Source: a virus
Reading direction: 5' to 3' (one strand)
Length of the DNA stretch: 49,429 nt
IMG/VR virus record: IMGVR_UViG_3300035034_000897
Coordinates: 1 to 49,429 of that record
Position numbers and translations under genes: made by a program. How positions within the stretch are numbered: the first letter of the stretch is position 1; the number at the start of each line of letters is the position of its first letter. The notes beneath the pieces were generated by a model that was not told the DNA's origin, made no database searches, and was given only the letters and a program-made list of their open reading frames with translations. Below, piece by piece: positions 3 to 49,429 of the stretch.

Positions 3-116
3 GTGACTCATGGGACCTGTTGCACTTGTCAATATTGTGGGCATGATTATGATGATTGTAGGTGTGAGGATATAGGTCAAAGATTTATAGAAGCACTTAA
101 TAAACGTAAGATATAA
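3..116 (+). CDS. Partial Cys-rich (zinc-ribbon-like) protein, 5' end missing
   Basis: An open frame runs in from the left edge and stops at TAA 114-116, giving about 37 residues. It contains a dense cysteine cluster (CCxCxxCGH, then DDCRC), as in small zinc-binding phage proteins. The start lies outside the window, so the true length is unknown. It lies upstream of and on the same strand as the recombination block, which suggests that the early operon continues beyond the left edge. No specific function can be assigned. Confidence 0.5.
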   Translation: MTHGTCCTCQYCGHDYDDCRCEDIGQRFIEALNKRKI

Positions 117-177
117 ATATGACAAACTAAATAATAATGAGCAAGTTAGATATATAACCAAGTTAAGAATTAAATAT

Positions 178-651
178 ATGAAAAAAGTAAAACAATTAAT
201 TGAGCTAGTAGCAGGTAGGTCGACACTACAAGCTGACTTGAAATCTAGGAAGGTGGAGTTTGAAAACTCTATTGCACTAGATAAGGCTAAGTTAGAAGAT
301 CTAATGGAGACCGAAGAGTCCCTTAGAGCTGACATCTTAGAAGATATGGGGCGATTGCACTTATCTAATATAGAGCTGGAAGATTATTCAGTCATATTAA
401 ATGAGAAAATGACGCCTCAAGTTGTAGATGCTAACAAAGTGTTGGCTGACGTAAGAAAGAACATCCAAGAGTTTACTGCTAGTGGTGTGAACATTGAAGA
501 CCTTATAAGTCAATCAATGGAGCAAGGCGTAGTGGTTACTAATAAAAAAGTTGTTCTTGAAATAAATGATATTTATTCTTCCCTTACAGGCTCTGGTCTG
601 GACGGTATGGATATTAAAAAAACTAAATATATTACACTTAAAAGTAAATAA
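178..651 (+). CDS. Coiled-coil protein of unknown function, first of the recombination block
   Basis: This is a 157-residue charged protein, probably mostly helical in its first 100 residues (Leu/Glu/Lys-rich, coiled-coil-like), followed by a short beta-rich end. The start is chosen at 178 because it has the context TTAAATATATG seen at many genes here. It directly abuts the SSB-like gene (TAA then ATG). Its position before annealing and nuclease genes is where Gam-type nuclease inhibitors or Gp157-like proteins often sit, but I see no diagnostic motif, so the function is left open. Confidence 0.75.
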   Translation: MKKVKQLIELVAGRSTLQADLKSRKVEFENSIALDKAKLEDLMETEESLRADILEDMGRLHLSNIELEDYSVILNEKMTPQVVDANKVLADVRKNIQEFTASGVNIEDLISQSMEQGVVVTNKKVVLEINDIYSSLTGSGLDGMDIKKTKYITLKSK

Positions 652-20022: not shown

Positions 20023-21498
20023 TTATGCGTCCTCTTTAATTTGTGTATCTATCACAAACCCTTCAAACTCCCAAGATAAACCGTCACTCTTCTCATAGAA
20101 GCGATAACGATATCTGTTAGCCGAAGCTGTTATTTCAATCTGTTGAACGTTTTGGTTTATAGTATCTTCGTTGTCTATAACGAATGTTCCTGCGTTGTCT
20201 GCGTCTACTGATACTTTCATGCCAGAGTTATTCTTTGTAAATACTGTCATGTGGTTAGTAAACTTCACATCCTCTGGAACTCCGTGATCTAGTAACCTTG
20301 TTTCAAAGAATGAGTCTATTTCTTTTCCTGCATCAGAGAATACTCTGTCAGCCTTTTCTGCAAACTTGTAAAGATTACCGTCAGATGACCCGAAGTAAGC
20401 TCTAGTATTGTCTGACTCTATGTGTTTGCAAGCAGCTGTTACATCTAGGTATGTGCATCTAATATAGCATCTCTGTCTAAGTGTATCGTAGCAGAACCAA
20501 GCGTTCTTATATAAAACATTGCTTACTGTAACGTCACCGATGAAGGCTCTGTATTCTTTCTTGTAATATTCAGTAGCCACTACCTTCCCAAAGGTTACTG
20601 GGTCTATAGCATCGATATACTCTTTAGCTCTTTCAGATATTAGTAATGGTGTAGAACCATCCCAAGCCCAGAAGCCGTGTCTGTTAAACCAATATATTTT
20701 ATTCTCTATAGTAAGTATTGATTTTGCACTGTCACATCCAGTCTCAGATACCTTAGTAGCACCAGACATAGATGAATCCATTTTCCATACTGATCTTTCT
20801 TTAAGGATTATAAGTCTGTCTACTGCTTCTCCACCACCTACTAGCACATCTCCGTCATCTACACCTACAGGCTCAAAGTTAGTCGCATTAACCCATTGGA
20901 CTACTCCACCTTCAACGTCTTCTGAATAATACACCCTGGAAGGATAATTAACACCAGCTACTCTACAGTTCATGACTATGAGTAGTTTTTTAAACTCAGT
21001 AATAAACTTCCCTTTAGGCATATCTACTAAATCCGTATCAGCCCCTGAGTCGCTTGTGTATGTAGTCCCTTTAATAGATATTGGGTCTATGAAATCTGTC
21101 CCGTCGTGTCCTACTATAAAGGCTTTTCCTACTAGGTTGATAGCAGATAGATTAGCATCAGCTGCTGTTGCTACTGTTGCCTTGACTGAAGACCATCCAC
21201 CGTTCTGTCTGTATTTGATAATAGTGTTTGTTCCGTCAAAAGCACCACCAATCTGGTAGTGCAGTGAATCGACGGTATTATAATAGAAATGTAGGAATGT
21301 TAAATCTGTATCAGCCAAAAAAGCTGTGTCATTAGCACTTCTAGTATAGCCAGGGACTTTCTCCAGCTTTCCTATTTTATAAGCCCATACATTCTTACAG
21401 GCGTATAATTCATTGTCTTGCAACAAAAAGTCAGTAACTCCGTTGTTTAGGAGTCCATCAAAGTTTGTATATCGAACTGGTGTTCCGTCTCTAGCCAT
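20023..21498 (-). CDS. Tail hub/nozzle protein, beta-propeller-like
   Basis: The start is moved to ATG 21498 (AAATATATG right after the adaptor stop); a frame from 21513 would overlap that gene. The 491 residues are built from repeated beta blades (KLEKVPGYTRS, DRLIILKERSVWKMD, KIYWFNRHGFWAWDG) like the tail-nozzle or stabilisation proteins that follow the adaptor gene in podoviruses. It likely forms the tail tube end below the adaptor. The neighbouring adaptor and the lack of a tail-tube gene support this. Confidence 0.75.
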   Translation of the reverse strand: MARDGTPVRYTNFDGLLNNGVTDFLLQDNELYACKNVWAYKIGKLEKVPGYTRSANDTAFLADTDLTFLHFYYNTVDSLHYQIGGAFDGTNTIIKYRQNGGWSSVKATVATAADANLSAINLVGKAFIVGHDGTDFIDPISIKGTTYTSDSGADTDLVDMPKGKFITEFKKLLIVMNCRVAGVNYPSRVYYSEDVEGGVVQWVNATNFEPVGVDDGDVLVGGGEAVDRLIILKERSVWKMDSSMSGATKVSETGCDSAKSILTIENKIYWFNRHGFWAWDGSTPLLISERAKEYIDAIDPVTFGKVVATEYYKKEYRAFIGDVTVSNVLYKNAWFCYDTLRQRCYIRCTYLDVTAACKHIESDNTRAYFGSSDGNLYKFAEKADRVFSDAGKEIDSFFETRLLDHGVPEDVKFTNHMTVFTKNNSGMKVSVDADNAGTFVIDNEDTINQNVQQIEITASANRYRYRFYEKSDGLSWEFEGFVIDTQIKEDA

Positions 21499-21503
21499 AT
21501 ATT

Positions 21504-22700
21504 TTATTCCCAATAAATAGATTCAGTAAACTCAACGCTCTCTGCGTCACCAACCTGTATAGGTCCAGTATACTCATCTACTTGTTGTTCAAGTAATTTA
21601 TTAAACATCGCATACATTTTATCCCCTCTTTTATCATTACCCCTGATATAGGCAAACATTGCTGCACAGTAGTATATAAGAATTGGAACAATGGCTAGAT
21701 TAACTGTATCTGATAATTCTGACAGAGTTACTGGTATAGCATAGTAATCGTAATTGATAACTAACTCTTTGCCTGGAGTCGGGAAGAAATGAGCCTGCTC
21801 GTTTCTAATTGTGTATGCTGATGGTTGACCAGTAGGTAGTGGGGTGCTTCCACTAGCCGCTAGTTGTAAGAATCTGCTTTCTGAGATGTAGTCGACTTTA
21901 GTTCCGTCTACTGTAACAAAGTTGATTACATTAACATCTGCTGGAAGAGCTGCGTAAGCTACGTTAGGAACAGTTACTATTGAAGCATCAGTGCTTCTAT
22001 AGAATGGCCAAGTTCTTTTTCTAGTAAGGACTTCATCAATCCCATCCTGAACTAGGTCAATACAGATGTTCCAGTTTAGTGGAGATGTAGGAGCTTCTTC
22101 TACTCTAGTAAGAGCTTTGCCTGCTGCAGACTCAATTATCCTCTTGATGGATCGTCTATTAAAAGTAGTTCCTTCTACTTGCTCTGATGATGGAGAGCTG
22201 TATCCATTTCTAGAGTCATAGAATACTGTTGAGAACCAACCGTATCTAGTGTCTCCAGACCCATCAACATATTCATAAACATATTCTGTAAAACTTTGGG
22301 TTGGGTCAATATCTATTTCAGCAATTTGTTGCATGTCTGCTATATCTCTTCCTGGTTGGACATCTCCGTAAACTACTAGTTTATCGTAGTCCATTACTGT
22401 TACTGGATCAGAAGCTGAATGAGAATTTGATAACTCATCTATAGGCAACTTCTTATCGTCTGTATCATTAGCAAACATTTCAACAATCTCTGTCTTCTCT
22501 TGGTTGTAATCACCCACTAATGCGTAATAGTAGTCTTTGTTTCGTCTATCCTTCTTAAAGAACCCTATCTTGGAGAGGATTTGCAGTTCAGTAGCGACGC
22601 CAGGAGAGGCATCCACATCTGCTGAGAGGTAAGTCCTTGGGCTGTCAGACACTTCTGGATTCACCACCTTCAGTTTTACTCGTATTGGTTGTATAGCCAT
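21504..22700 (-). CDS. Head-tail adaptor (tail tubular A-like) protein
   Basis: 398 residues. The N-terminal third is an extra beta domain. The C-terminal half has the layout of podovirus adaptor proteins: an early helix with VQDGIDEVLTRKRTWPFYR, ALPADVNVINFVTVDG, a strand with QAHFFPTPGKELVINYDYYA, and a long final helix containing IPILIYYCAAMFAYIRG. The adaptor joins the portal to the tail hub, which is encoded next. Family assignment is from pattern; fold prediction would confirm. Confidence 0.7.
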   Translation of the reverse strand: MAIQPIRVKLKVVNPEVSDSPRTYLSADVDASPGVATELQILSKIGFFKKDRRNKDYYYALVGDYNQEKTEIVEMFANDTDDKKLPIDELSNSHSASDPVTVMDYDKLVVYGDVQPGRDIADMQQIAEIDIDPTQSFTEYVYEYVDGSGDTRYGWFSTVFYDSRNGYSSPSSEQVEGTTFNRRSIKRIIESAAGKALTRVEEAPTSPLNWNICIDLVQDGIDEVLTRKRTWPFYRSTDASIVTVPNVAYAALPADVNVINFVTVDGTKVDYISESRFLQLAASGSTPLPTGQPSAYTIRNEQAHFFPTPGKELVINYDYYAIPVTLSELSDTVNLAIVPILIYYCAAMFAYIRGNDKRGDKMYAMFNKLLEQQVDEYTGPIQVGDAESVEFTESIYWE

Positions 22701-26739: not shown

Positions 26740-29700
26740 TTATTTTGAAATCCTTACTTTTGGAATAGAGCTTGTGACTCTACTACTTGATTGAGGAGAG
26801 CTTGTAACTTGTATCCCTTGAACAGAGCTAGTGGCTCTGCTCTTTTTTTCTCTTTCAGGGCTTTTAAACCAAGCTGGTTTAATCACCCTTTTATATAGGT
26901 TCTGATAGACACCCATGAAAAGAGAGAGAACAAGATCAAGTCTAACTGTTAAATAAAATCTTTTAGCACCCTTTCCAACCAGAGTTATTACGAGCGTAAT
27001 AGCTGATTTTACAATAGATTTTATAATATTGGGCACTAAACTAATAATTTGAGTAAGCAACTTCCTAATGGATTTCGTAATACTAGAGGTCACATATATG
27101 GCAACTTCAGCTATAATCCCTACGATTTTAAGCCCTTCTACTATAATTATAGCATTTTTCAGCTTTTTAATAAACTTGATAATTTCAGATATCAGGTTTA
27201 TCGTTATTTCTAAAAGTTTTTTCAGATACTTTGTTATTTTAGAACTGAGTGTAATTGTCAGATTAAATATCAGACCATAGATTACTCCACCAGTCCCTCC
27301 ACCTATGCTGATAATAAGTCTAAACAACTTATACACAGCCTTTTGCACAGTTGTGGATAAAGATATGGACAGTTCTACTAGAACACTGACTAATCGTCCA
27401 AATCCACCAGACATCCATATTATTACGTTCTTTATGGTCTTAAGTAACTTATTCACAGAAGTTACTAATGATATAGATAGTTCTACGATAAGTTCTACGG
27501 CTTGACCAAAACCACCAGAGATATCAATGATTATTCCTCTGATTAGCTTAATAAGTTTGGTGACCGAAGAAGTCACGCTAAGAGTAACCTGAATCATCGC
27601 CTCTATTACTCTTCCGATGACACCACTAATGAGTATTTCAACCCATCTAGCGATAGAGATAAGAATGGTCCTACCAGGGCTCAGGGCTAGCACATTCTCT
27701 ATTTTTATCCTCATGCTCTTGGTCAATTTAGAACCAAGTGTCAGTATTGAACTCACCAATAAATGGATTGCTCTATTGGCGACATAAGAGATTGTTATAA
27801 CTGCCCCTTTCACAAGCCCAATGACAAATAGGCGAACTGCATTTAATCCTAAAGCAGCGGAAAGCAGGATGCTAATAGCAACCGTCTTTAATGCTGTTAG
27901 TCCAATACTAACACTTGCTACCAACTCGTAAATCTTAGTTGAAGCATAAAATAATGTGATCTGAACTGACTTGAAATACTTCAAGAAAAACCTTTTGGTT
28001 GGAGTCAACGATATGGTCAACATAACCAACATTTGTATGACATTGCCAGCTGTTCCTGTCATATAAAGGAAACTGGAAAATAGCTTCTTAATATACTTTG
28101 CTATTGAAGCCGTCATATTGATAGATATATTAATAAGCATTTCAATGACTCTTCCTGTAGTTCCAGAGATTGTTACTGACACTGATTTTAAATATTTGAG
28201 ATAAAAAGACCTCAAAATTGATAATATAAGGCCAGTTGATACAAACTTTTGTATGAACTTGCTTAATAAGGCTGAAAAACTGATAATAAGTTCCACCAAT
28301 ATTTCTATCGTTCTTCCTGTCGCTCCAGACATATAAACTATAACTTGCTTGCCAGAACGAATAGCCTTCCTGATATATATTCCTAGTGTAAATGCAGTGC
28401 TCTTTATCAAGGTAATATATTTATTGACAGAACTGTATATATTCAGTATAGCTTCGACTGTCATGTCGATTACCTGTCCAAGTCCTCCAGATATATCAAT
28501 AGTCACAGATTTAAAATATCTCAAAAATAGACTTTTTTGTCCAAATAATGACAGAATTTGTGACTTTATCACAAATATTGCCTTTTTTTGGAAAGAACTG
28601 ACTAAAAAAGAAACATTTGCTATTAAGTCATAAGTCTTCCCAGTCCCTCCAGATATGCCAAGTGATATTGATTTAAAGTATTTTAAGAAGAACCTTTTTA
28701 CTGGAGTCAGCAATATGGTCACGTTTGCTACTAATGCATAAACCTTCCCAAACCCTCCAGATATGTCTAGTGTGATGCTCTTAAAGTATTTAAGAAAGAA
28801 ACGTTTTCCTGGTGTCAGGAAGACATCCAGCTCCACTAATATGGAGATAAAACGATTGTATGTAGTGGTCATGTATAAAAAAGTAGCTCTTCCTGCCTTT
28901 ATTAGAGCGTTCTTAACTAATCCTAGTGACAAAACCAATGTAACTACCATGTAGTAGGCTTTGACAAAACCACCAGAAATAGTCATAGTAACGCCCTTAA
29001 TATACTTCAAAAATACGCTCATAGAGCTTCCTAGGGCTAAAGAAAGGCTGATAACTAGCTGGTATGCGTTGTTTATACTCCCCGATATAGACAAAATAAC
29101 TCCCCTAAAGAATCTTACAAATATACTTTTTAGGGCACTAAGTCCAATATTAATCTCAACCAATACATCTATTATTCTACCAGGGGCTCCTGTTATAGAG
29201 ATTATTACTCCACCAAAATACTTTATCAGTTTAGAAACTGACGCACTTAAGTCCACTATTGTATGGACTAAAACGCTAATTAGCTTGTTAGTATATCCTG
29301 ATATACTAGTAGCCGCTCCTCTAAACATTTTAACAAGTAAAGAGAAAGATGGTGATAAAGTTAAAGCAACTTGAACCAATGTTTGATAAGCACTGTTGAT
29401 CCCTCCACTAATCCCTATAATAATTGACTTGTAAAGTCTAATTAACACTGACTTAGATACAGAGAGAACCACTGTAACATTAGTTAATAACTCTATAACC
29501 CGTCTGTCTAGGCTGCTCAAAAATAGCTGAGCAGACCTAAACAGCTGTATAAAGGCGGAGAATGACGAAGTAAGTAGCACGGTTGTGGCCATTACGATCT
29601 GTAGAACTTTTGTCCCAAAAGCACTAAACACTATCGTCACTCCCCTAGAAAGAGAAATTAACCTTGTCAAAGTGGGGACTAAAGACAAAGTAAGGTTGAT

Positions 29701-30807
29701 AACCCCTTCAATCGTTTTGTTAGCTAAACTCGAGATGGTGATTGTTATAGTTCTTGAGAGTCTTATAAATATCACCTTTAGAGCAGATAAGCTAATTGAA
29801 GAAGTTTTCAGTAAGCCAATACGCCTAGTAAGATCGGCAGATAAACTAAGAATACTGTTGAAAACTCCTTCAATTAACTTTCCACCAGTCCCAGATATGG
29901 TGAAAATAGCTCCTCGAATCATTTTAATAAATATAGAAAAACTAGCTGTTAGTGCTATAGAAACAGTTGCCATTATCTCAATTGCTCTCCCAAACCCACC
30001 AGATATACCGATAGTTACTGATTTAAAATACTTTAGCAAAAAAGCCTTACTTGGAGTAAGGTTGATAACTGTTTGTAGTATAAGTTCATATAAACTGGTC
30101 AAAGTTCCAGAGACTGCTAGAGTTGCTCCTTTAACGTATTTGATGAAGAATGCCCTGATTATTGATATAAACAAAGATACTTCTACCAGTATCTCTATGA
30201 ACCTGTTTTTAGTTCCTGAGAGCGTCATGGTGACGCTGTTAATCATTCTGATGAATATGGTCTTTGTTGCTCCTAAGGTAAGGGAGACGTTAGCCAGTAG
30301 CTCTATAACACGGTTCTGGAATGAAGATATCGTTACTGTTACTGACTTGAAATATTTTAGAAAAAAGCTCTTAGCTCCAGCAAGGGATAGTCCTGCATAG
30401 AACAAGAATGAGAATAGTTTTTCGAAGGCTGCAGTCATTGCCATAGTCCCAGACCTAATCATTCTAAGGAAGAATGAGAACTTGGCTGATAATGACATTG
30501 AAGCACTCGCTACTAAGCTATAAACTCTGTTTAGTAGTGTTGATATATAAAGTGTTACTGATTTGAAATATCTAAGGAAAAAGATCTTGCTTACACTGAG
30601 AGCCAGGGATACTGCTACTAGTCCGTATATAGCTCTAGATATAGATTGCGTTATAAAGAATGCACCACCTTTTCTGATTGCTGCTAATATTGTTCTTATA
30701 GATGACAAAGATAAGGCAACAGCAATTGTCTTATATAGTCTCTGTGGAATGTTACCCTTCGGTCTCCCTCCGTATGAGTGAGCCCCGTAAGAAAAAGAAC
30801 CATACAT
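26740..30807 (-). CDS. Giant hydrophobic protein built of about 70 tandem 18-residue repeats
   Basis: 1355 residues. It opens with MYGSFSYGAHSYGG, an N-terminal 'YG' motif seen on phage appendage proteins, then almost everything from about residue 24 to 1290 is a tandem array with a period of 18, usually pairing into 36 (FFLKYFKSVTVTISSFQN, then RVIELLANVSLTLGATKT). Each unit has a bulky hydrophobic/basic half and a Ser/Thr-alternating half (SVTLDIS, NVSLTLG) closed by Gly/Ser. It is very poor in acidic residues. The end is polar (Ser/Arg-rich). It sits next to the modular tail protein. Function unknown; a membrane-interacting or fibrous tail component are both possible. Confidence 0.85.
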   Translation of the reverse strand: MYGSFSYGAHSYGGRPKGNIPQRLYKTIAVALSLSSIRTILAAIRKGGAFFITQSISRAIYGLVAVSLALSVSKIFFLRYFKSVTLYISTLLNRVYSLVASASMSLSAKFSFFLRMIRSGTMAMTAAFEKLFSFLFYAGLSLAGAKSFFLKYFKSVTVTISSFQNRVIELLANVSLTLGATKTIFIRMINSVTMTLSGTKNRFIEILVEVSLFISIIRAFFIKYVKGATLAVSGTLTSLYELILQTVINLTPSKAFLLKYFKSVTIGISGGFGRAIEIMATVSIALTASFSIFIKMIRGAIFTISGTGGKLIEGVFNSILSLSADLTRRIGLLKTSSISLSALKVIFIRLSRTITITISSLANKTIEGVINLTLSLVPTLTRLISLSRGVTIVFSAFGTKVLQIVMATTVLLTSSFSAFIQLFRSAQLFLSSLDRRVIELLTNVTVVLSVSKSVLIRLYKSIIIGISGGINSAYQTLVQVALTLSPSFSLLVKMFRGAATSISGYTNKLISVLVHTIVDLSASVSKLIKYFGGVIISITGAPGRIIDVLVEINIGLSALKSIFVRFFRGVILSISGSINNAYQLVISLSLALGSSMSVFLKYIKGVTMTISGGFVKAYYMVVTLVLSLGLVKNALIKAGRATFLYMTTTYNRFISILVELDVFLTPGKRFFLKYFKSITLDISGGFGKVYALVANVTILLTPVKRFFLKYFKSISLGISGGTGKTYDLIANVSFLVSSFQKKAIFVIKSQILSLFGQKSLFLRYFKSVTIDISGGLGQVIDMTVEAILNIYSSVNKYITLIKSTAFTLGIYIRKAIRSGKQVIVYMSGATGRTIEILVELIISFSALLSKFIQKFVSTGLILSILRSFYLKYLKSVSVTISGTTGRVIEMLINISINMTASIAKYIKKLFSSFLYMTGTAGNVIQMLVMLTISLTPTKRFFLKYFKSVQITLFYASTKIYELVASVSIGLTALKTVAISILLSAALGLNAVRLFVIGLVKGAVITISYVANRAIHLLVSSILTLGSKLTKSMRIKIENVLALSPGRTILISIARWVEILISGVIGRVIEAMIQVTLSVTSSVTKLIKLIRGIIIDISGGFGQAVELIVELSISLVTSVNKLLKTIKNVIIWMSGGFGRLVSVLVELSISLSTTVQKAVYKLFRLIISIGGGTGGVIYGLIFNLTITLSSKITKYLKKLLEITINLISEIIKFIKKLKNAIIIVEGLKIVGIIAEVAIYVTSSITKSIRKLLTQIISLVPNIIKSIVKSAITLVITLVGKGAKRFYLTVRLDLVLSLFMGVYQNLYKRVIKPAWFKSPEREKKSRATSSVQGIQVTSSPQSSSRVTSSIPKVRISK
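26907..30738 (-). repeat. Coding tandem repeats, 54-bp period (108-bp higher order)
   Basis: The 18-residue protein repeat corresponds to diverged 54-bp units at the DNA level. The most conserved piece encodes FFLKYFKS and appears again and again on the plus strand as variants of TTGAAATATTTTAGAAAAA (for example near 27970, 28190, 28510, 28675, 28770, 30020, 30345 and 30565). Copies differ at many sites, so the array is old or selected at protein level rather than a recent duplication. Single extra half-units break the 36-residue phase in several places. Confidence 0.8.
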
Positions 30808-41254: not shown

Positions 41255-41283
41255 ATTATATCATAAATTAACTAATTACTTAA
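41255..41283 (-). promoter_or_regulatory. Putative extended -10 promoter before scaffold/capsid genes
   Basis: Leftward: TGATATAAT, an extended -10 (TGn plus perfect TATAAT at 41260-41255), with a weak -35 (TTAAGT) 17 bp further upstream overlapping the portal stop. It lies in the 96-bp gap after the portal gene, which also contains a small CGTG/CACG hairpin at 41222-41238. It would boost scaffold and capsid expression. Confidence 0.45.
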
Positions 41284-43286
41284 GCGTTCGACATTGGAGT
41301 GCTTGTATCTACTGCCTCTCCTAGCCCTGGCATAGCTTCTTGAACTGGCTCTGGGGCCTGTTCTGTGGGCAATCCTTGCATTTCTCCACCTGGAATAGTA
41401 GGTCCTCCGCCTTGCATATACCCTTCTTCATTCTGAATATGTTCATCAAAGAGCCGTTTATTGTTCTGATAAGCATTATTATCCTCTTGGATAAATGCCA
41501 TATGCAGTTCTGTATGCTCTTCCGACCATAATGATTTAGGGGTTAATGGGACTTGTTGCCCAGCTGCCATTGACATATTCTCCTGGTCTGCCATATCTGC
41601 GGTATCTTCTGGACCATTTCCACCAGTATCGTGAGAAGCTTTCTGTTTAACCATTTCTTCCTTCATCTTCTCAGCTTTCATCTTCTCTACCCTAGCTAGA
41701 ATGTCACTAATATTAGATACTGATAGCTTTTCTAGTAAAGTTTGAGGATCAATAACTCCAGTTTGAGCAAGCATAAATAGTCTTTCTATTTTAGTTTCCT
41801 CGCTGTAAGCCACTTCAGGCACAATGGCCACTCTGACCTTAGAAGACTTAATAACTGTTGTTCCATTTGGGGCTGGGCTGTCTTCTGTAACTGCTCCACC
41901 ACCAATATATTTAATCTCTTCACCCTCTTCAACTATTTTATCGCTAACAACTTGATGGTCCTCAATAGCTTCTAAACAGAACTCTGCCATTTCTCCAAGC
42001 ATTTTCTCTAAGTTCTCAATAGGTTCTGATACTGTAGCTGCGTCTGCAGACTGCAGTGCTTCAATACCTTTACCAGATTGAACGCTTCCTGGGGCTCTTC
42101 CCATAGAAGCTGCTCCAATACCACCGAGTTCTTCAATCCATCTTTCGAGGTTAGCTAGATGGTTAAAAGGTGCGGCAGGTAATGGTTGTAGGTTTTGTTG
42201 GACAGGTGGGACAGAACCTTTATAGTAAATCTTCTCAGCCCCTTTGTCTGTAATTGTAGAAACTTCTACTCCTTGCTTGATAAGATATTTACCAGCAAGC
42301 ATCCTCTGAATGTATCCTTCGATCTGACTTGTAGACTTATCGAGAGATTTGTTCAGAGAGATAAGGTCTTTCACCCACGCATTTGAATAGATAGAGTTGG
42401 GATCTTTTTCTGGGTTGTATACAAACAATGGGTATCTTCTGTAGTTAGGGTCGTATACTCTAACAAATTCATTCCCGATAATAGTAAGTATCCTCACCTT
42501 AGTCCTACCCCCCTCTTCCCACTTCATAGTCAACTCCTTAACGATAACGCTCTCCAAGTCCTTACTACCTTTAGTAATTCCATCTTCGAACTTCTCTTGT
42601 TCTAGAAGTTGTTTATATTCAGAAGAACCGTCTTTGTTATCTGGAGTGATAACTGACTTGTCCTTAATAGTGTAACTCTTGTTGTTTAATACTGAAGTCA
42701 AAGGCTTCTTGATAGCTTTGAAATAATATCTAGCACCCTTCAGGTTTGGTGCGAATGGGTCAATGTAAATATCAAAAGAATCATCACACCAGAAATCTGT
42801 CTCTGTCTTACCATCACCTTTAACAGTAACTGATCCTTCTAAAAAACCAGCAGAATACTTCAGTCCGTTAATAACAACGTCTGTGAGAGAGCTTTTGATC
42901 TGTTTCTTTTCATAAATGTTCTGTAAGATTTTGTTCTTTTGTTTTGCAGCACTAAGGTCATCATCCTCAACTCCGTCTGGATGGACTTCCCATCTAGGCT
43001 GGTTTCGTTTGATGAAGTTTTTAATACCACGAACTTGGGACTTAATCTTGTTGACCGTCCTTCTAATTTCACCTTTAGAAATAGGAATAACCTGTATCTT
43101 GTTTGTAGTTTTGTTGTAGACGACCCAATGGTCTCCACGATAAAAACGCTCATTCGTATACCAATCTCTATGCAATTTAAGGTAGTGAGTCCTTGTATCG
43201 TCAAACAGTTTGTTTGCAAATATGGCGACGTTACTATCCCCAGGTTTTAAGCCTTCACCTCGAAGGTCTTTTAATTCATACTTCAT
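41280..43286 (-). CDS. Portal protein
   Basis: 668 residues, start in ACAAAATATG. The N-terminal region has WYTNERFYRGDHWV, NKIKSQVRGIKNFIKRNQPRWEVHP and AAKQKNKILQ, typical of podovirus/P22-type portals (NR.V..I.....RN.P...V.P...D..AA). A central stretch with DPFAPNLKGARYYFK and later SLNKSLDKSTSQIEGYIQR follow, and the C-terminus is Met/Glu/Pro/Gly-rich, as in long portals with a barrel or flexible tail. Order TerL - portal - scaffold - capsid supports the call. Confidence 0.88.
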   Translation of the reverse strand: MKYELKDLRGEGLKPGDSNVAIFANKLFDDTRTHYLKLHRDWYTNERFYRGDHWVVYNKTTNKIQVIPISKGEIRRTVNKIKSQVRGIKNFIKRNQPRWEVHPDGVEDDDLSAAKQKNKILQNIYEKKQIKSSLTDVVINGLKYSAGFLEGSVTVKGDGKTETDFWCDDSFDIYIDPFAPNLKGARYYFKAIKKPLTSVLNNKSYTIKDKSVITPDNKDGSSEYKQLLEQEKFEDGITKGSKDLESVIVKELTMKWEEGGRTKVRILTIIGNEFVRVYDPNYRRYPLFVYNPEKDPNSIYSNAWVKDLISLNKSLDKSTSQIEGYIQRMLAGKYLIKQGVEVSTITDKGAEKIYYKGSVPPVQQNLQPLPAAPFNHLANLERWIEELGGIGAASMGRAPGSVQSGKGIEALQSADAATVSEPIENLEKMLGEMAEFCLEAIEDHQVVSDKIVEEGEEIKYIGGGAVTEDSPAPNGTTVIKSSKVRVAIVPEVAYSEETKIERLFMLAQTGVIDPQTLLEKLSVSNISDILARVEKMKAEKMKEEMVKQKASHDTGGNGPEDTADMADQENMSMAAGQQVPLTPKSLWSEEHTELHMAFIQEDNNAYQNNKRLFDEHIQNEEGYMQGGGPTIPGGEMQGLPTEQAPEPVQEAMPGLGEAVDTSTPMSNA

Positions 43287-43814: not shown

Positions 43815-44263
43815 CTTTTTTAAAATACTTTATCCATCTCTGTCTATTATGGTTTGTTTTCATATGACAGCTTTTACATAAAGTTATTAAATTATTAGGG
43901 TCACAGTTCTTTTTATCATAATCTATATGATGAATGTGAAACGTCTCATCTCCTTGCTTGCTATTACAAACCTGGCAAACATATTTATCTCTCTCTAATA
44001 GCTGTTCTTAAGCTTTCAGTCCAATCAACAGTGTATGGTTCAAAAGAAGTTCCGCCTCTCCAAGACTTACTATTTTCCTGGACATATTTTCCAGTAAGAG
44101 ATTCACTTATGTTTCTCTTATGCTCTTCTGAAAATTTTTTCCCAGACCAGAATTTTACTGCCTTTCCTTTTCTTGATTTGCTCATCTTTTCTTTCGTCTT
44201 TTCAGAATGCTTAAAGCCCTTTTTTCCCTTATTCCAAGGAATATATCCTTTAAGAAACGCCAT
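43807..44263 (-). pseudogene. Frameshifted HNH homing endonuclease at the groEL 3' end
   Basis: ATG 44263 opens MAFLKGYIPWNKGKKG, NUMOD3-like repeats (KEKMSKSRKGK, EHKRNISESLTGK), SWRGGTSFEPY and ESLRTAIRER, then stops with TAA at 43987-43985. In another frame the expected continuation DKYVCQVC, FHIHHIDYD, NNLITLCKSCH and WIKYF runs on to 43807. The break lies in an AGAGAGAG run, where two missing (or one extra) bases explain it. Without a recoding signal the catalytic domain is lost. The gene starts inside the last codons of groEL and ends over the next gene's start, so it is an insert squeezed between the two. Confidence 0.8.
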
Positions 44264-45821
44264 TTTTTTCAGGCTCGTTAGCAATAGCAACATTGCTCGT
44301 GAGGAGAATCCCTGCAGTAGCAACAGCATTCTGAATTTCATTTCTCACCACTTTTTTGGGGTCAATGATTCCATTCTTAATTAGATTCTCGTAGTCGCCT
44401 GTTAAAGCATTGAACCCAAGCCCCTTATCAATGACTCGGCCTACAACTGCTTCACCAGACCAACCACCGTTGTCTGCAATTTGTCTTAATGGAGCTGAGA
44501 GGGCTTTTCTTACGATGTCTACTCCTGTGTTAAATTCCTTTTCTCCAGTTTCAAATATGAAGTCAGAACATTTAAGAAGTGCAACTCCTCCACCTTCTAC
44601 TACACCTTCCTCTATGGCAGATTTAGTAGCATTTAAGGCATCTTCAATTCTGTAACGTCTTTCCATTTGCTCAGCATCACTTGCTCCACCAACATTTATT
44701 CTGGCGATAGAGCCATTAATGATACCGAGTCTCTCTTTAAGTTTTTCTTTTCTAAAGATATCCTTTTCGTCTTTAAGAAGAGCCTTTATCTCCTTTAGTC
44801 TTCCTTTGATATTTCCTTTAGCACCAGAGATGATTGTTGCATCTCTAGACACTAGAATCTCTTCACAAGTTCCACAGTCTTCTGCAGTCCCGTCTTCAAT
44901 TCTTTTACTAGCGTCTTCTCCTAGAACTTCTGCTCCAGTTAAGGCTGCTAAATCGAAAATGATATCTCTATTGTAGTCTCCGAAACTTGGGAGGGAAACA
45001 GGGATGCAATAGAACTTTCCCTGAAGATAATTTTGAACTAGAAACGCTAGAGCTGAACCCTCAACCTTATCAGCTAGCAATACAATATTCTTCTTACCAG
45101 CTTCTAAAAGAGACTGGATAACAGGAATAATTTGAGAGGCCATGCTTACCGTGTCTAGGCACATAATGATACTTGGTTTCTCTTGACCTGCTGATAAACG
45201 TTCTGGTCTGTTTACGAATACATGAGATGCATACCCAGATTTGATCTGAGTCCCACTAACGTATTCTACTCCAGTTTCTAGAGAACTAGAGCTTGCAACA
45301 GTAACCACTCCGTCTATACCTACCATATCAATTACACCTGAAATCATTTTACCAGTAGCTTCATCGTTATTGGCACTTATTGTAGCAACTTGATTCTTTT
45401 CATCTAGGGTCTTGATCTTCTTGGCTTGTTTGTCTAGCTTAGCAAGAACATGCTCTAGGGCTTCATCCATTCCTCTTTTAATAAGGATAGGATTCATACC
45501 AGAGGCGACTGCTTTATGACCTTCGTTAAACATTTCTCTAAGAAGGACTAGGGTGGAAGTAGTGCCATCTCCTGCAGCTCTGTTAGTATTCTCAGCTGCC
45601 TCTCTTGATATCATAGCCCCCATTCGTTCAAAGCTATCTTTAGGGTATACCTGAGCAGCTGCCGTAACTCCGTCCTTTGTGATAGTCGGATACATACCTT
45701 CTTCGAAGATAACGTGTTGACCTCGTGGACCGAGTGTAGACGATACTACATCAGCTAAAATATTAACGCCTTTTTTTATTCTGTCCCGTGCGTCAGGACC
45801 AAACTTAATTTCTTTGTTCAT
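44250..45821 (-). CDS. groEL: Phage GroEL-type chaperonin (HSP60)
   Basis: 523 residues, close to the usual 540-550. Group I chaperonin signatures are present: TLGPRG (29-34), the ATPase motif AAGDGTTSTLVL with Asp85, SANNDE, an apical domain with SGTQIKSGYASHVF, DASKRIEDG, GRLKEIKALLKDE, GGASDAEQMERR, the C-terminal ATP-site block EEGVVEGGGVALLK, and NGIIDPKKVVRNEIQNAVATAGILLTS. The Gly/Met-rich C-terminal tail of host GroEL is missing; the protein ends EPEKNGVS. Start in AATAAATATG, five bases after GroES. It probably folds capsid or other virion proteins with the phage co-chaperonin. Confidence 0.95.
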   Translation of the reverse strand: MNKEIKFGPDARDRIKKGVNILADVVSSTLGPRGQHVIFEEGMYPTITKDGVTAAAQVYPKDSFERMGAMISREAAENTNRAAGDGTTSTLVLLREMFNEGHKAVASGMNPILIKRGMDEALEHVLAKLDKQAKKIKTLDEKNQVATISANNDEATGKMISGVIDMVGIDGVVTVASSSSLETGVEYVSGTQIKSGYASHVFVNRPERLSAGQEKPSIIMCLDTVSMASQIIPVIQSLLEAGKKNIVLLADKVEGSALAFLVQNYLQGKFYCIPVSLPSFGDYNRDIIFDLAALTGAEVLGEDASKRIEDGTAEDCGTCEEILVSRDATIISGAKGNIKGRLKEIKALLKDEKDIFRKEKLKERLGIINGSIARINVGGASDAEQMERRYRIEDALNATKSAIEEGVVEGGGVALLKCSDFIFETGEKEFNTGVDIVRKALSAPLRQIADNGGWSGEAVVGRVIDKGLGFNALTGDYENLIKNGIIDPKKVVRNEIQNAVATAGILLTSNVAIANEPEKNGVS

Positions 45822-46713: not shown

Positions 46714-46820
46714 TACGCCAATTTGTTGATTAAGAATTAGTCCTCCCTCTTCTTGCCCAAGAGGTGGCGAGCCTAGTCGGGGCTTCTAAAATATGATGTG
46801 CACTTATCTATATTTCATTG
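46714..46820 (-). other. Untranslated gap with two hairpins between tRNA-Trp and the next gene
   Basis: Leftward sequence contains AGCC-CCGACTA-GGCT and CCTCTT-GGGCAAG-AAGAGG (a perfect 6-bp stem with a seven-base loop) followed by A/T-rich DNA. They could be tRNA 3' processing or mRNA leader structures. No T-run and no clear promoter, so neither a terminator nor a promoter is claimed. Confidence 0.4.
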
Positions 46821-46894
46821 CACAGGGGGCACGACTCGAACGTGCAATCGACGGGTTTGGAATCCGTTGCCTTAAACCATTAGGCCACCCCTGC
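46821..46894 (-). tRNA. tRNA-Trp (anticodon CCA)
   Basis: A full cloverleaf: acceptor GCAGGGG/CCCCTGT (7 pairs, first is G-U), D-stem GCCT/AGGC with AATGGTTTA loop, anticodon arm ACGGA-TTCCAAA-CCCGT (anticodon CCA, U33 present, with an A-C mismatch at the pair next to the loop), five-base variable loop, T-arm GCACG-TTCGAGT-CGTGC, and discriminator G73. CCA is not encoded. It lies two bases after the terminase nuclease stop, so it must be processed from the late transcript or from its own one. Confidence 0.88.
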
Positions 46895-46896
46895 AA

Positions 46897-47880
46897 CTAA
46901 TCTTGATCCCAATCACTTGCTTGTATCTTGGGTCTTAATAAGTTTTGTATATCTTTTTGTATTCTTGTTTGTTCTGGCTTCACCATCTCTGGGCTTATAG
47001 GTCTAGTCATCACCATGTATCTAAGAGAGTCTGGTCCATGGTCATTCTTCTTAACAGGTTCCTCTGGATCGTTGTAATTTCTTACATTTGCCTCTGTAAG
47101 TTCCTTATAGCGGTAATTAGTGAGCTCAGAGACTAAATTAGGGCACTTATCTTTGAATATATATAGGCTAGGGGTGCCATCCACACCCAGCTTCATATAC
47201 TCTCTAATACGAGTAATGCCTGCATCTATGTCATTTTGAGCCAGTTCGAAGTCCCATCCATGGTCATAAAACTCCTCTTTAATAGAATATGGGATCTCTT
47301 CACCTCCAGTAACCTTACTCCTGTTCTTACTCTTAGTAGAAGGGTCAATTACCATCGGACTAAAGGTGTTTGTAGCGATTAATCTACGTTGAGTAACAGA
47401 TTTCCACTCCAAAGGGGGCATAAGATAGGCAAATTCTTCGAACATGTCCTTGCTGGCTCTTGATGGCAGGGCTGGTTTGTAGTATTCATCTATAATATAT
47501 AGCTTCTGGTCCATGGTCCAAGCACCAACTAGTGCACAATTGGGGTTTCTCTGTCCAAAGTCTAGACTCAGTAGCAACTCATAAGGTTCTGGGAGTTCAT
47601 AAGAGTTGATTAGGTGAATATTCTTATCAAAGTCACAGTATTCAGGACCATAAATGAGTTTACCACTCTTAGTAGAGAAATCTATCTCATATTCCTTATC
47701 CCAGGTAGCTTTTGGAGTCCCTCTTCTCTCATTATCATACCACTCTGCACCATCTCTCTCTGGATCCTTGTTCGGATCGGCTGTATAATGAAGCATTGCG
47801 ACAGCAAATCTGTTCTTGGGATTTTTCCACACTTTCATTCCCTTTATTTTTTCTGGTTGGTTTACTTCTTCGTATTTCAT
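46897..47880 (-). CDS. Terminase large subunit, nuclease part (separate ORF)
   Basis: 327 residues with the RNase H-like nuclease of TerL: first Asp in LLSLDFGQRNP (D107), second in MVIDPSTKSK (D179), and third in the NDHGPDSLRY helix (D280/D284). Starts at ATG 47880 in a TAGAAATATATG context. It is in the same frame as the upstream ATPase ORF and separated by TAG-AAA-TAT only; joined, the two parts make about 561 residues, a usual TerL length. Either a real second gene with its own start or the second half of a readthrough product. Confidence 0.87.
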   Translation of the reverse strand: MKYEEVNQPEKIKGMKVWKNPKNRFAVAMLHYTADPNKDPERDGAEWYDNERRGTPKATWDKEYEIDFSTKSGKLIYGPEYCDFDKNIHLINSYELPEPYELLLSLDFGQRNPNCALVGAWTMDQKLYIIDEYYKPALPSRASKDMFEEFAYLMPPLEWKSVTQRRLIATNTFSPMVIDPSTKSKNRSKVTGGEEIPYSIKEEFYDHGWDFELAQNDIDAGITRIREYMKLGVDGTPSLYIFKDKCPNLVSELTNYRYKELTEANVRNYNDPEEPVKKNDHGPDSLRYMVMTRPISPEMVKPEQTRIQKDIQNLLRPKIQASDWDQD

Positions 47881-47886
47881 ATATTT

Positions 47887-48582
47887 CTAAATTTCGATGT
47901 TGTCGAATACTAAATCATGGAAGAAGGTGTTATCTTCTGCCGTGCTCACACCTGTAAACTTTCCCTTAGATGAAATGGTCGGTTTAGCTGCAGTATAGGC
48001 ACTCATGGCTGCTGGTTGAAATGCCATCTCATCTGCCAGTATTCCAGAAGCGGTATGCATACGGATAATATCACCTCCCTCTGGGATTCCCCGTATCTCA
48101 GAGTTTATGCCTGGGAAAGCCAGTCTACAGTGGGTATGGGTGCCACTAGCCTGTGGGTTGGCAAGTAATGGGTGAAACTCTCTATCTAAATGATATCTCT
48201 TAAGGAATTTAGGCTCATTATCATATACGAACTTAGCCCTCTTAACGAGATCGTTTGCGTCGTCTTCTTTTTTACTCTGAAAGAACGTCAGTCTACCGTG
48301 GTGGAACTGTGTGTCCCACAGATATAGGCTGGTAAATAGCCATGACATCATTAATTGTCGGCTTTTAGGGATTAATAGCAGGTTCTCTTTCTGCCATAAC
48401 TCAACTATTTCCTTGATATAGAGCTTTTTAGGAAATGCTTTGATAGTATTCTCACGATCATGGACATCTAAAGTGAAAGCCCAGTTAGTAAGAAAGTAAT
48501 AAGGGTCATCATGACATGCCCACCACTCTAAATCTTGTAATTTTTTACTCTTATGTATCTTTTGTAGGTCTTCAACATTCAT
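47887..48582 (-). CDS. Terminase large subunit, ATPase part (ends in in-frame TAG)
   Basis: 231 residues. Deviant Walker A around 71-80 (IPKSRQLMMS, with the K-S-R-Q type loop of many TerLs), Walker B GILADEMAF (D184, E185), and coupling motif VSTAED (213-218). The adenine-binding Q and the R/K finger pattern are plausible in the first 70 residues. It stops with TAG at 47889-47887; the nuclease part begins two codons later in the same frame. It overlaps nothing and follows TerS by 24 bases. Confidence 0.87.
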   Translation of the reverse strand: MNVEDLQKIHKSKKLQDLEWWACHDDPYYFLTNWAFTLDVHDRENTIKAFPKKLYIKEIVELWQKENLLLIPKSRQLMMSWLFTSLYLWDTQFHHGRLTFFQSKKEDDANDLVKRAKFVYDNEPKFLKRYHLDREFHPLLANPQASGTHTHCRLAFPGINSEIRGIPEGGDIIRMHTASGILADEMAFQPAAMSAYTAAKPTISSKGKFTGVSTAEDNTFFHDLVFDNIEI

Positions 48583-48606: not shown

Positions 48607-49086
48607 CTACAAATCTCTAAGGATCGCAGCCTTCAATTCTTCTCTCTTTTCTGGAGTAAGCTTGGAGACATCTACATCATCTATATTGTGGGTCTCAGTC
48701 AACTTAATCTCCTTTTGTTCTTTAAACGCTCCAGTAAGCTTACCAAACAGAGCAATCCCATTGTTCATAGCTGTGTAGTCAGGGACAGTATCTATCTTTA
48801 CTCCCTTGTCATATACAGCCTTAGTAGCAGTCATCATTTTACTGATAACTTTAATAACGGCCTTCTTATCTAGTCCTTCTTGCATACCAATAGTTGCATA
48901 GTTAAACTCGATCTGTTCAATCTTCTCACGGATCTTCTTCATTTCTAACAGTCTATTGCTATTAACATTAGCTGTGTTTTTTTTGTCTGTTTTAAAAGCT
49001 GACCTGTATGCCTTTGAGGCATTATAGCCATTCTTGATGTATTCTTCACAGAAAGCTGTTTGGCTCTCAGTTAGTTTATTTTGCAT
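48607..49086 (-). CDS. Terminase small subunit
   Basis: 159 residues: LTESQTAFCEEYIKNGYNASKAYRSAF at the start is the HTH of the Terminase_2 family, followed by a coiled-coil oligomerisation stretch (about 45-70) and an acidic C-terminal region (THNIDDVDVSKLTPEKREEL) that could contact TerL. Start in AAATATATG. First gene of the leftward late block, with a promoter directly upstream. Ends with TAG. Confidence 0.88.
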   Translation of the reverse strand: MQNKLTESQTAFCEEYIKNGYNASKAYRSAFKTDKKNTANVNSNRLLEMKKIREKIEQIEFNYATIGMQEGLDKKAVIKVISKMMTATKAVYDKGVKIDTVPDYTAMNNGIALFGKLTGAFKEQKEIKLTETHNIDDVDVSKLTPEKREELKAAILRDL

Positions 49087-49250: not shown

Positions 49251-49291
49251 TGTTTTTTTATGTTTTTTTGGTGTTTTTTTGGTGTTTTTTT
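49251..49291. repeat. Phased T-tracts at 10-11-bp spacing
   Basis: Four TGTTTTTTT blocks start at 49251, 49261, 49272 and 49283. Spacing of 10-11 bp puts the T-tracts in phase with the DNA helix, which predicts intrinsic curvature. The stretch lies about 165 bp upstream of terS, next to the 21-bp repeats. Confidence 0.7.
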
Positions 49292-49323
49292 AGAAAAGTA
49301 TTTATATTTTTAGGATAGGGGGG

Positions 49324-49428
49324 TGTTTATATTTTTAGAAAAAGTGTTTATATTTTTAGAAAAAGTGTTTATATTTTTAGAAAAAGTGTTTATATTTTTA
49401 GAAAAAGTGTTTATATTTTTAGAAAAAG
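49324..49428. repeat. Five perfect tandem 21-bp repeats at the right edge
   Basis: The unit TGTTTATATTTTTAGAAAAAG repeats exactly at 49324, 49345, 49366, 49387 and 49408 and runs to the window edge; a degenerate copy precedes it near 49297-49315. Each unit carries one T5 and one A5 tract, and the 21-bp period equals two helical turns, so the tracts are in phase. It may be a packaging or replication site, or simply where assembly broke. Confidence 0.85.
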
Positions 49429-49429
49429 T

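Follow-up and report, generated by a model that had tools for sequence, protein, structure and literature searches.

The large terminase subunit (TerL) of the virus in IMG/VR record IMGVR_UViG_3300035034_000897 (positions 1 to 49,429; herein referred to as the window, meaning the whole 49,429-nucleotide stretch that was analyzed) is encoded in two open reading frames (ORFs) divided by a single in-frame TAG, which raises the question of whether this stop is an error, a site of readthrough, part of a spliced gene, a sign of decay or the end of a genuine gene. A first-pass annotation of the sequence had favored expression as two subunits, pointing to the context of the second start. Our analysis leads to the same reading on broader grounds: the in-frame TAG is best read as one form of a conserved two-gene TerL and is very unlikely to be a sequencing error, a readthrough site or the mark of a dying gene, and we consider a two-gene enzyme highly probable, the products of which would be obligate partner subunits, translationally coupled in this virus, that rebuild TerL in trans.

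The locus lies on the minus strand, a point omitted from the first-pass annotation, and reads in the order TerS, ATPase ORF, TAG, AAATAT, nuclease ORF and tRNA-Trp(CCA), with groEL, the portal gene and the major head genes farther down (table 1); TerS upstream of the TerL genes and the portal gene downstream, after groEL, are the usual neighborhood of TerL. The TAG-ended ATPase ORF is indeed followed in frame by AAA TAT ATG, such that the two ORFs share one frame and are separated by three codons (TAG AAA TAT). Reading through both gives 561 codons with the TAG counted, in agreement with the earlier estimate of a combined product of about 561 residues with almost nothing missing. The match of the nuclease half to Terminase_3C (E 5.1e-5) falls under the gathering score, and the same half also matches phrog_5653 and phrog_10250, both terminase large subunit families.

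Table 1. Features of the terminase locus and neighboring genes (positions in the window)
Feature	Position	Strand	Basis or remark
TerS (small terminase)	48607..49086	-	Pfam Terminase_2, E 5.7e-12
TerL gene for the ATPase core, 231 aa (ASCE core containing the P-loop, Walker B and coupling motifs)	47887..48582	-	ORF; phrog_5989/phrog_2, terminase large subunit
Deviant P-loop PKSRQLMMSW, residues 72-81	48340..48369	-	Lys73 and Arg75 invariant
Walker B GILADE, Asp184-Glu185	48028..48045	-	D184 and E185 in 82/82 rows
Coupling motif VST, residues 212-214	47941..47949	-	S213 in 77/82, T/S214 in 81/82 rows
TAG stop of the ATPase-core gene	47887..47889	-	Sequence
AAATAT spacer, 6 nt, belonging to the AAATATATG start context	47881..47886	-	Sequence
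TerL lid-plus-nuclease gene, 327 aa (lid putative)	46897..47880	-	ORF; phrog_5653, E 1.3e-15; Terminase_3C, E 5.1e-5 (under gathering score)
N-terminal part, residues 1-73, putative ATPase lid subdomain	47662..47880	-	Gap at T4 306-361; weak D6E match
RNase H-like nuclease domain, residues 74-298	46987..47661	-	Fold alignments of a weak AF2 model
tRNA-Trp(CCA), directly 3' of the nuclease gene	46820..46894	-	Anticodon does not pair with TAG
Phage groEL, with homing-endonuclease-like ORF over its 3' end	43985-45821	-	groEL: phrog_5725, E 6.3e-125
Portal protein, in the packaging module shared with the TerL genes	41280..43286	-	phrog_156, E 3.2e-26

The start context AAATATATG, which the first-pass annotation had proposed as one used by other genes of this virus, proved genuine: the window holds nine copies against 1.05 expected by shuffling, a count reached in 0 of 100 shuffles of the window. 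Seven of the nine stand at starts of the 46 listed ORFs, and an eighth (21496-21504) fits, in our reading, an ATG that lies inside ORF 20023-21513, itself started by TTG. Such a start signal at the second ATG argues against a sequencing or assembly error, in which one wrong base would have created a false stop, although a single base change could restore the open frame. That the halves lie in frame with nothing missing is, in turn, what recommends amber readthrough or suppression, in which the TAG would be partly decoded and the working product would be the full-length 561-residue TerL. However, separate genes in this window often share a frame across a stop (ten cases in which both open segments span at least 80 codons, one of them the TerS/ATPase pair at 48609), such that an in-frame TAG alone needs no special explanation. 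TAG terminates 8 of the 46 listed ORFs, and the tRNA search of the window yielded tRNA-Trp(CCA) alone. TGA ends a further 5 of the 46, from which we take the window to be translated in code 11.

The decisive evidence comes from relatives (designated here by L numbers). A nuclease-half scan of viral contigs yielded 145 relatives, 80 of which were retained. In all 30 loci of 55-70% identity the nuclease ORF stands alone, its match preceded by no more than 26 in-frame codons; at 29-34% identity, 41 of the 50 distant loci are uncut at the 5' side, and every one of these 41 encodes a fused TerL with 252-264 codons ahead of the nuclease match. Junctions are readable in 25 of the 30 close loci, and in all 25 (some of which are near-copies) the ATPase gene breaks off after the same residue (window residue 231 +/-2), whereas the start of the nuclease varies in frame and lies between 1 and 2240 nt farther along. 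A break present in 25/25 other contigs, even with some of them near-copies, leaves an error in this one record barely credible.

A second scan, with alignment of the ATPase halves, enlarged the relative set. The end of the ATPase ORF is present in 86 loci, of which 71 are split, 7 are fused and 8 lack a profile-recognized nuclease; 18 loci from contigs already represented were dropped ahead of the counts, as were 9 near-copies, which were picked out by hand. The 77 nonredundant relatives comprise 62 split, 7 fused and 8 without a recognized nuclease, shares that hold for the family reached by the two pattern scans rather than for phages at large. TerL therefore occupies two ORFs, not one polypeptide, in the window and in 62/77 nonredundant relatives, and the earlier statement that natural stand-alone terminase ATPase and nuclease parts are rare has to be given up for this family, which lies outside the cultured phages. 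The ORFs next door were scanned in five of the eight rows without a recognized nuclease: those of L130, L149, L155 and L142 match terminase PHROGs weakly, and that of L150 gave no terminase PHROG match (L140, L147 and L152 fell outside that scan). With four of five scanned neighbors weakly terminase-like, most of the eight rows are probably split as well, and they are kept out of the split count.

With first-ATG starts assumed, the two genes of the 62 split relatives overlap in 13, are separated by 0-25 nt in 11, 26-99 nt in 4, 100-999 nt in 30 and at least 1000 nt in 3, and are swapped in one (L159: nuclease, then TerS, then ATPase). The overlap of -205 in L124 is an artefact of an early ATG, and the distance in L157 depends on the start chosen (-8 or +16). 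Compact junctions, from overlap to 25 nt, number 23/62, and 9 of these 23 are ATGA overlaps. The ATPase genes end in TAA (34), TGA (18) or TAG (10), and the halves stand in the three relative frames in 25, 22 and 15 cases. The break is thus kept while frame, stop codon and spacing vary, which makes a stronger case for two genes than the start context alone and upholds the preference of the first-pass annotation for two-subunit expression over error or readthrough. Because most relatives have their halves out of frame or far apart and use all three stops, we consider readthrough highly improbable; separate translation of the two halves is, on this comparative evidence, well supported.

A tblastn search with both halves against 50,697 phage records returned matches that are all below 60% identity (232 and 85 records), and five more queries from other split branches gave the same outcome or no match; the 7 records opened among the nearest annotated phages are all fused, with the match inside one long gene. 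We built a tree of 82 ATPase domains and one outgroup, leaving out rows with inteins or short ATPase matches. The ATPase profile misses marine fused loci, and Burkholderia phage Magia, which has a very long branch, was therefore taken as the outgroup. The window falls in a clade of 38 rows (support 98/99), nested in a clade of 41 rows (support 95/95); all rows in both are split and the fused rows lie outside. Within the window clade, the split is old. The seven fused rows imply three changes on the tree, the starred branches allow one origin and several branches are long; given the three changes and the long branches, we make no claim on the ancestral state of the whole family. The first-pass annotation had named two findings that would count against it, reads or close relatives with a sense codon at the TAG and a difference of frame between the parts. 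Both need care: no row in the window clade is fused, and a frame difference in relatives argues for two genes rather than against them.

Pieces of one gene can also be rejoined after transcription, and under this alternative the halves would be exons flanking a group I intron or would be split by an intein, with a single mature protein. The terL of ICP1 has a group I intron and is spliced (PMC10448857). Within the present family, in-frame inserts occur near nuclease residue 282, at the last acidic motif, in L021, L024/L025, L029/L030 and others; those of L021, L024 and L029, which interrupt the motif, are inteins (PF14890, two with HNH_3). Further in-frame inserts lie near ATPase residue 183 in L002 and L115, and the one in L115, at Walker B, matches PF14890 at E 0.002, below the cut-off. 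Against splicing at the junction itself, no Rfam intron reaches the gathering threshold in the window or in 16 relatives (15 with long junction inserts, and L116 with 113 nt), the 23/62 split relatives at most 25 nt apart or overlapping have no space for an intron, and L159 has its gene order swapped. In the window, the 6-nt gap holds neither an intron nor an intein at the break. Spliced halves are accordingly a most improbable account, and the pattern at the junction reads instead as a pair of genes whose intergenic space tolerates insertions.

Those insertions are varied. An HNH endonuclease (L001), an HNH/NUMOD3 endonuclease (L115) and a LAGLIDADG protein (L012) are encoded between the halves of relatives, and no endonuclease gene stands at the split of the window; L012 also has a complete tRNA gene there. 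A small ORF with what we read as an HExxH-like motif lies between the halves in L002, L010, L012, L026, L028, L091 and L115; in Pfam scans of three of them, the L012 and L091 copies received no family and the L026 copy matched DUF4932 weakly, and this ORF is perhaps a metallopeptidase.

If the stop instead marked a broken, nonfunctional fusion, with packaging left to another terminase, nothing in the locus beyond the stop itself would speak for it. By two profiles the window, possibly an incomplete record, contains no further TerL, the catalytic residues are retained and both halves are under purifying constraint (in comparison with L006, pN of 0.16 and 0.24 against pS of 0.91 and 0.76 in the two halves). 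We assign decay next to no probability and retain the reading of two working genes.

The stop codons of some relatives bear on their genetic code. In L027, L028, L116 and L088 together, 24 of 37 in-frame TGA cases fall on a Gly column, and the one TGA of L088 falls on a Trp column; L027 and L028 gave equal nuclease counts and may be near-copies. Code 25 is described for phages of Gracilibacteria and Absconditabacteria (PMC10746230), and the TGA positions suggest that code 25 phages occur among the relatives. The high-identity genome matches are a contig labelled Mycoplasmatota and one bacterium, both of which may be stray phage contigs. Also in a contig labelled Mycoplasmatota, 17 tRNA matches stand in series upstream of the terminase genes (L087:11-1580). 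Apart from the terminase locus, the window itself has a 1355-aa ORF (26740-30807, minus strand) in which a hydrophobic unit apparently recurs many times in degenerate form, a 108-bp DNA repeat in 1.9 copies within the region of that ORF (28616-28818), and a 21-bp tandem repeat in 6.7 copies that runs up to the end of the record (49287-49429) and may reflect a genuine terminal repeat or the point at which assembly halted.

The first protein has an ASCE ATPase core with a Walker B acidic pair and, at residues 212-214, the coupling motif VST. Its P-loop is deviant: K73 and R75 are each present in 82/82 rows of the ATPase alignment, position 79, where the usual P-loop Lys would stand, is never Lys (M/V/L/I/A/C/F/Q/G across the 82 rows), and the canonical Lys (GKT/S) is found in none of them. 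One search pattern held RQMM (RQMMx[ST]W), which biases the Met columns and not Lys73. A leading-Lys P-loop is also found in lambda gpA. The distant relatives immuto and LR756508 are fused yet have an intermediate P-loop (K-S/A-R-Q-x-G-I-S), and so the Lys change probably predates the gene split. An AF2 model of the ATPase half built from 19 sequences (mean pLDDT 82) aligns over 211 residues to T4 gp17 65..305 (Z 21.0, rmsd 3.5) and, as far as residue 189, to D6E TerL. The ATPase-half protein thus ends at about T4 gp17 residue 305, just past the coupling motif.

The nuclease half is modelled less well (pLDDT 57, with residues 43-81 below 50), and on this weak model it aligns to D6E TerL (Z 14.1), to the P22 nuclease (Z 13.7), from residue 74 onward to T4 gp17 361..560 (Z 10.2) and, in its core, to SPP1 and others. 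The acidic residues D107, D179, D280 and D284 are invariant, and the half would, on the weak model, be an RNase H-like nuclease with three acidic residues (D107, D179 and D280/D284). Since the core ends at about T4 305 and the nuclease resumes at T4 361, the last part of the ATPase domain, T4 306-360, is expected to have its counterpart in residues 1 to ~73 of the second protein. No sequence is missing between the halves, as both profiles match one 544-residue ORF in series in the fused relative L158, where residues 32-217 align to positions 25-224 of the ATPase profile and residues 230-499 to positions 9-295 of the nuclease profile.

D6E TerL consists of an ASCE core, a lid, a 12-residue linker (230-241) and a nuclease, and its lid Tyr that touches the P-loop Arg is Y213 (PMC5727402). 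From position 25, the nuclease profile aligns to the D6E stretch that precedes the linker (chain index 194); this lid-region match is weak alone (9.6 bits) and collinear with a second stretch, with which it reaches E 3.6e-4. In that weak alignment, W47-Y48 of the window protein fall at or beside the lid Tyr, taking Y213 as chain index 216 on the assumption of three tag residues, and W47 is invariant (21/21). By these models and alignments, it is the ATPase domain itself that is interrupted, ahead of its lid, rather than the ATPase-nuclease hinge, so that the earlier picture of clean ATPase and nuclease parts needs revision: the ATPase lid is expected to belong to the second protein together with the nuclease, an assignment that leans on the absence of a lid from the first chain as much as on the observed match.

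We hypothesize that the first gene supplies the ASCE ATPase core, from the P-loop to the coupling motif, and that the second supplies, in one chain, an RNase H-like headful nuclease preceded by the ATPase lid. A ribosome that terminates at the TAG could reinitiate at the second ATG, 6 nt farther along, and so would keep the two subunits in near-equal numbers. Restart is reported to drop steeply with distance, and subunits of one complex to be enriched among gene pairs spaced -8 to +10 nt apart (PMC10666635); the +6 nt spacing of the window fits this range and is consistent with coupling by restart. The gaps of 100-999 nt (30/62) exceed what a single ribosome could bridge by restart; coupling is thus not a clade-wide mechanism, and these genes need initiation of their own. 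The two chains would meet at the portal, where the lid of chain 2 would cover the ATP site of chain 1, and ATP hydrolysis in the core chain would move the lid and nuclease arm of the other. How the split arose is a guess: by analogy with Aeh1 nrdA, it may have begun as the insertion of a mobile endonuclease.

How ATP hydrolysis is turned into DNA movement by the terminase motor is disputed, and models differ on the roles of lid and nuclease (PMC5727402). We see even chances that this uncultivated phage lineage keeps its ATP-binding core and its force-transmitting lid on different proteins, such that the firing subunit is a two-chain unit whose lid-nuclease arm is in principle exchangeable, regulable or dispensable with no change to the ATPase. 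If true, this would be a natural motor with a separate core and lid-nuclease arm, each of which could be added, omitted or mutated alone in a packaging assay. Because each half resembles a truncated gene, terL counts in metagenomes and terL trees may also mishandle the split lineage.

The closest comparisons are with single-chain terminases. The window TerL resembles T4 gp17 in its ATPase-core fold, in its C-terminal RNase H-like fold (the latter from the weak model) and in motif order; gp17, however, is one chain, whereas the window TerL is divided within its ATPase domain, at a point near gp17 residues 305-306, and its P-loop has the Gly-Lys of gp17 replaced and a Lys in front (KSRQ). D6E TerL (5oe8 and others) is closest to the nuclease half in both fold (from the weak model) and profile, yet it too is a single chain, with the window break at about its residue 189, ahead of the linker. 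Two-gene TerL annotations also occur in actinobacteriophages, as stand-alone entries of the type "terminase large subunit, ATPase domain" and "nuclease domain". Essential phage enzymes in two reassembling pieces are represented by Aeh1 nrdA (MobE) and the large subunit of T4 topoisomerase (MobA), splits that contain an endonuclease gene (PMC2988022), whereas 23/62 split members of the window family are compact, with no gene of any kind in the split, and the split is clade-wide. The terL of ICP1 is also interrupted, but its pieces are rejoined by RNA splicing (PMC10448857), and that of Campylobacter phage IBB_35 is described as interrupted by an intein and an intron (PMC3322345). Split phage enzymes and interrupted terL genes are thus already known; our searches of the open-access PMC literature turned up no published description of a TerL divided ahead of its lid across a whole clade.
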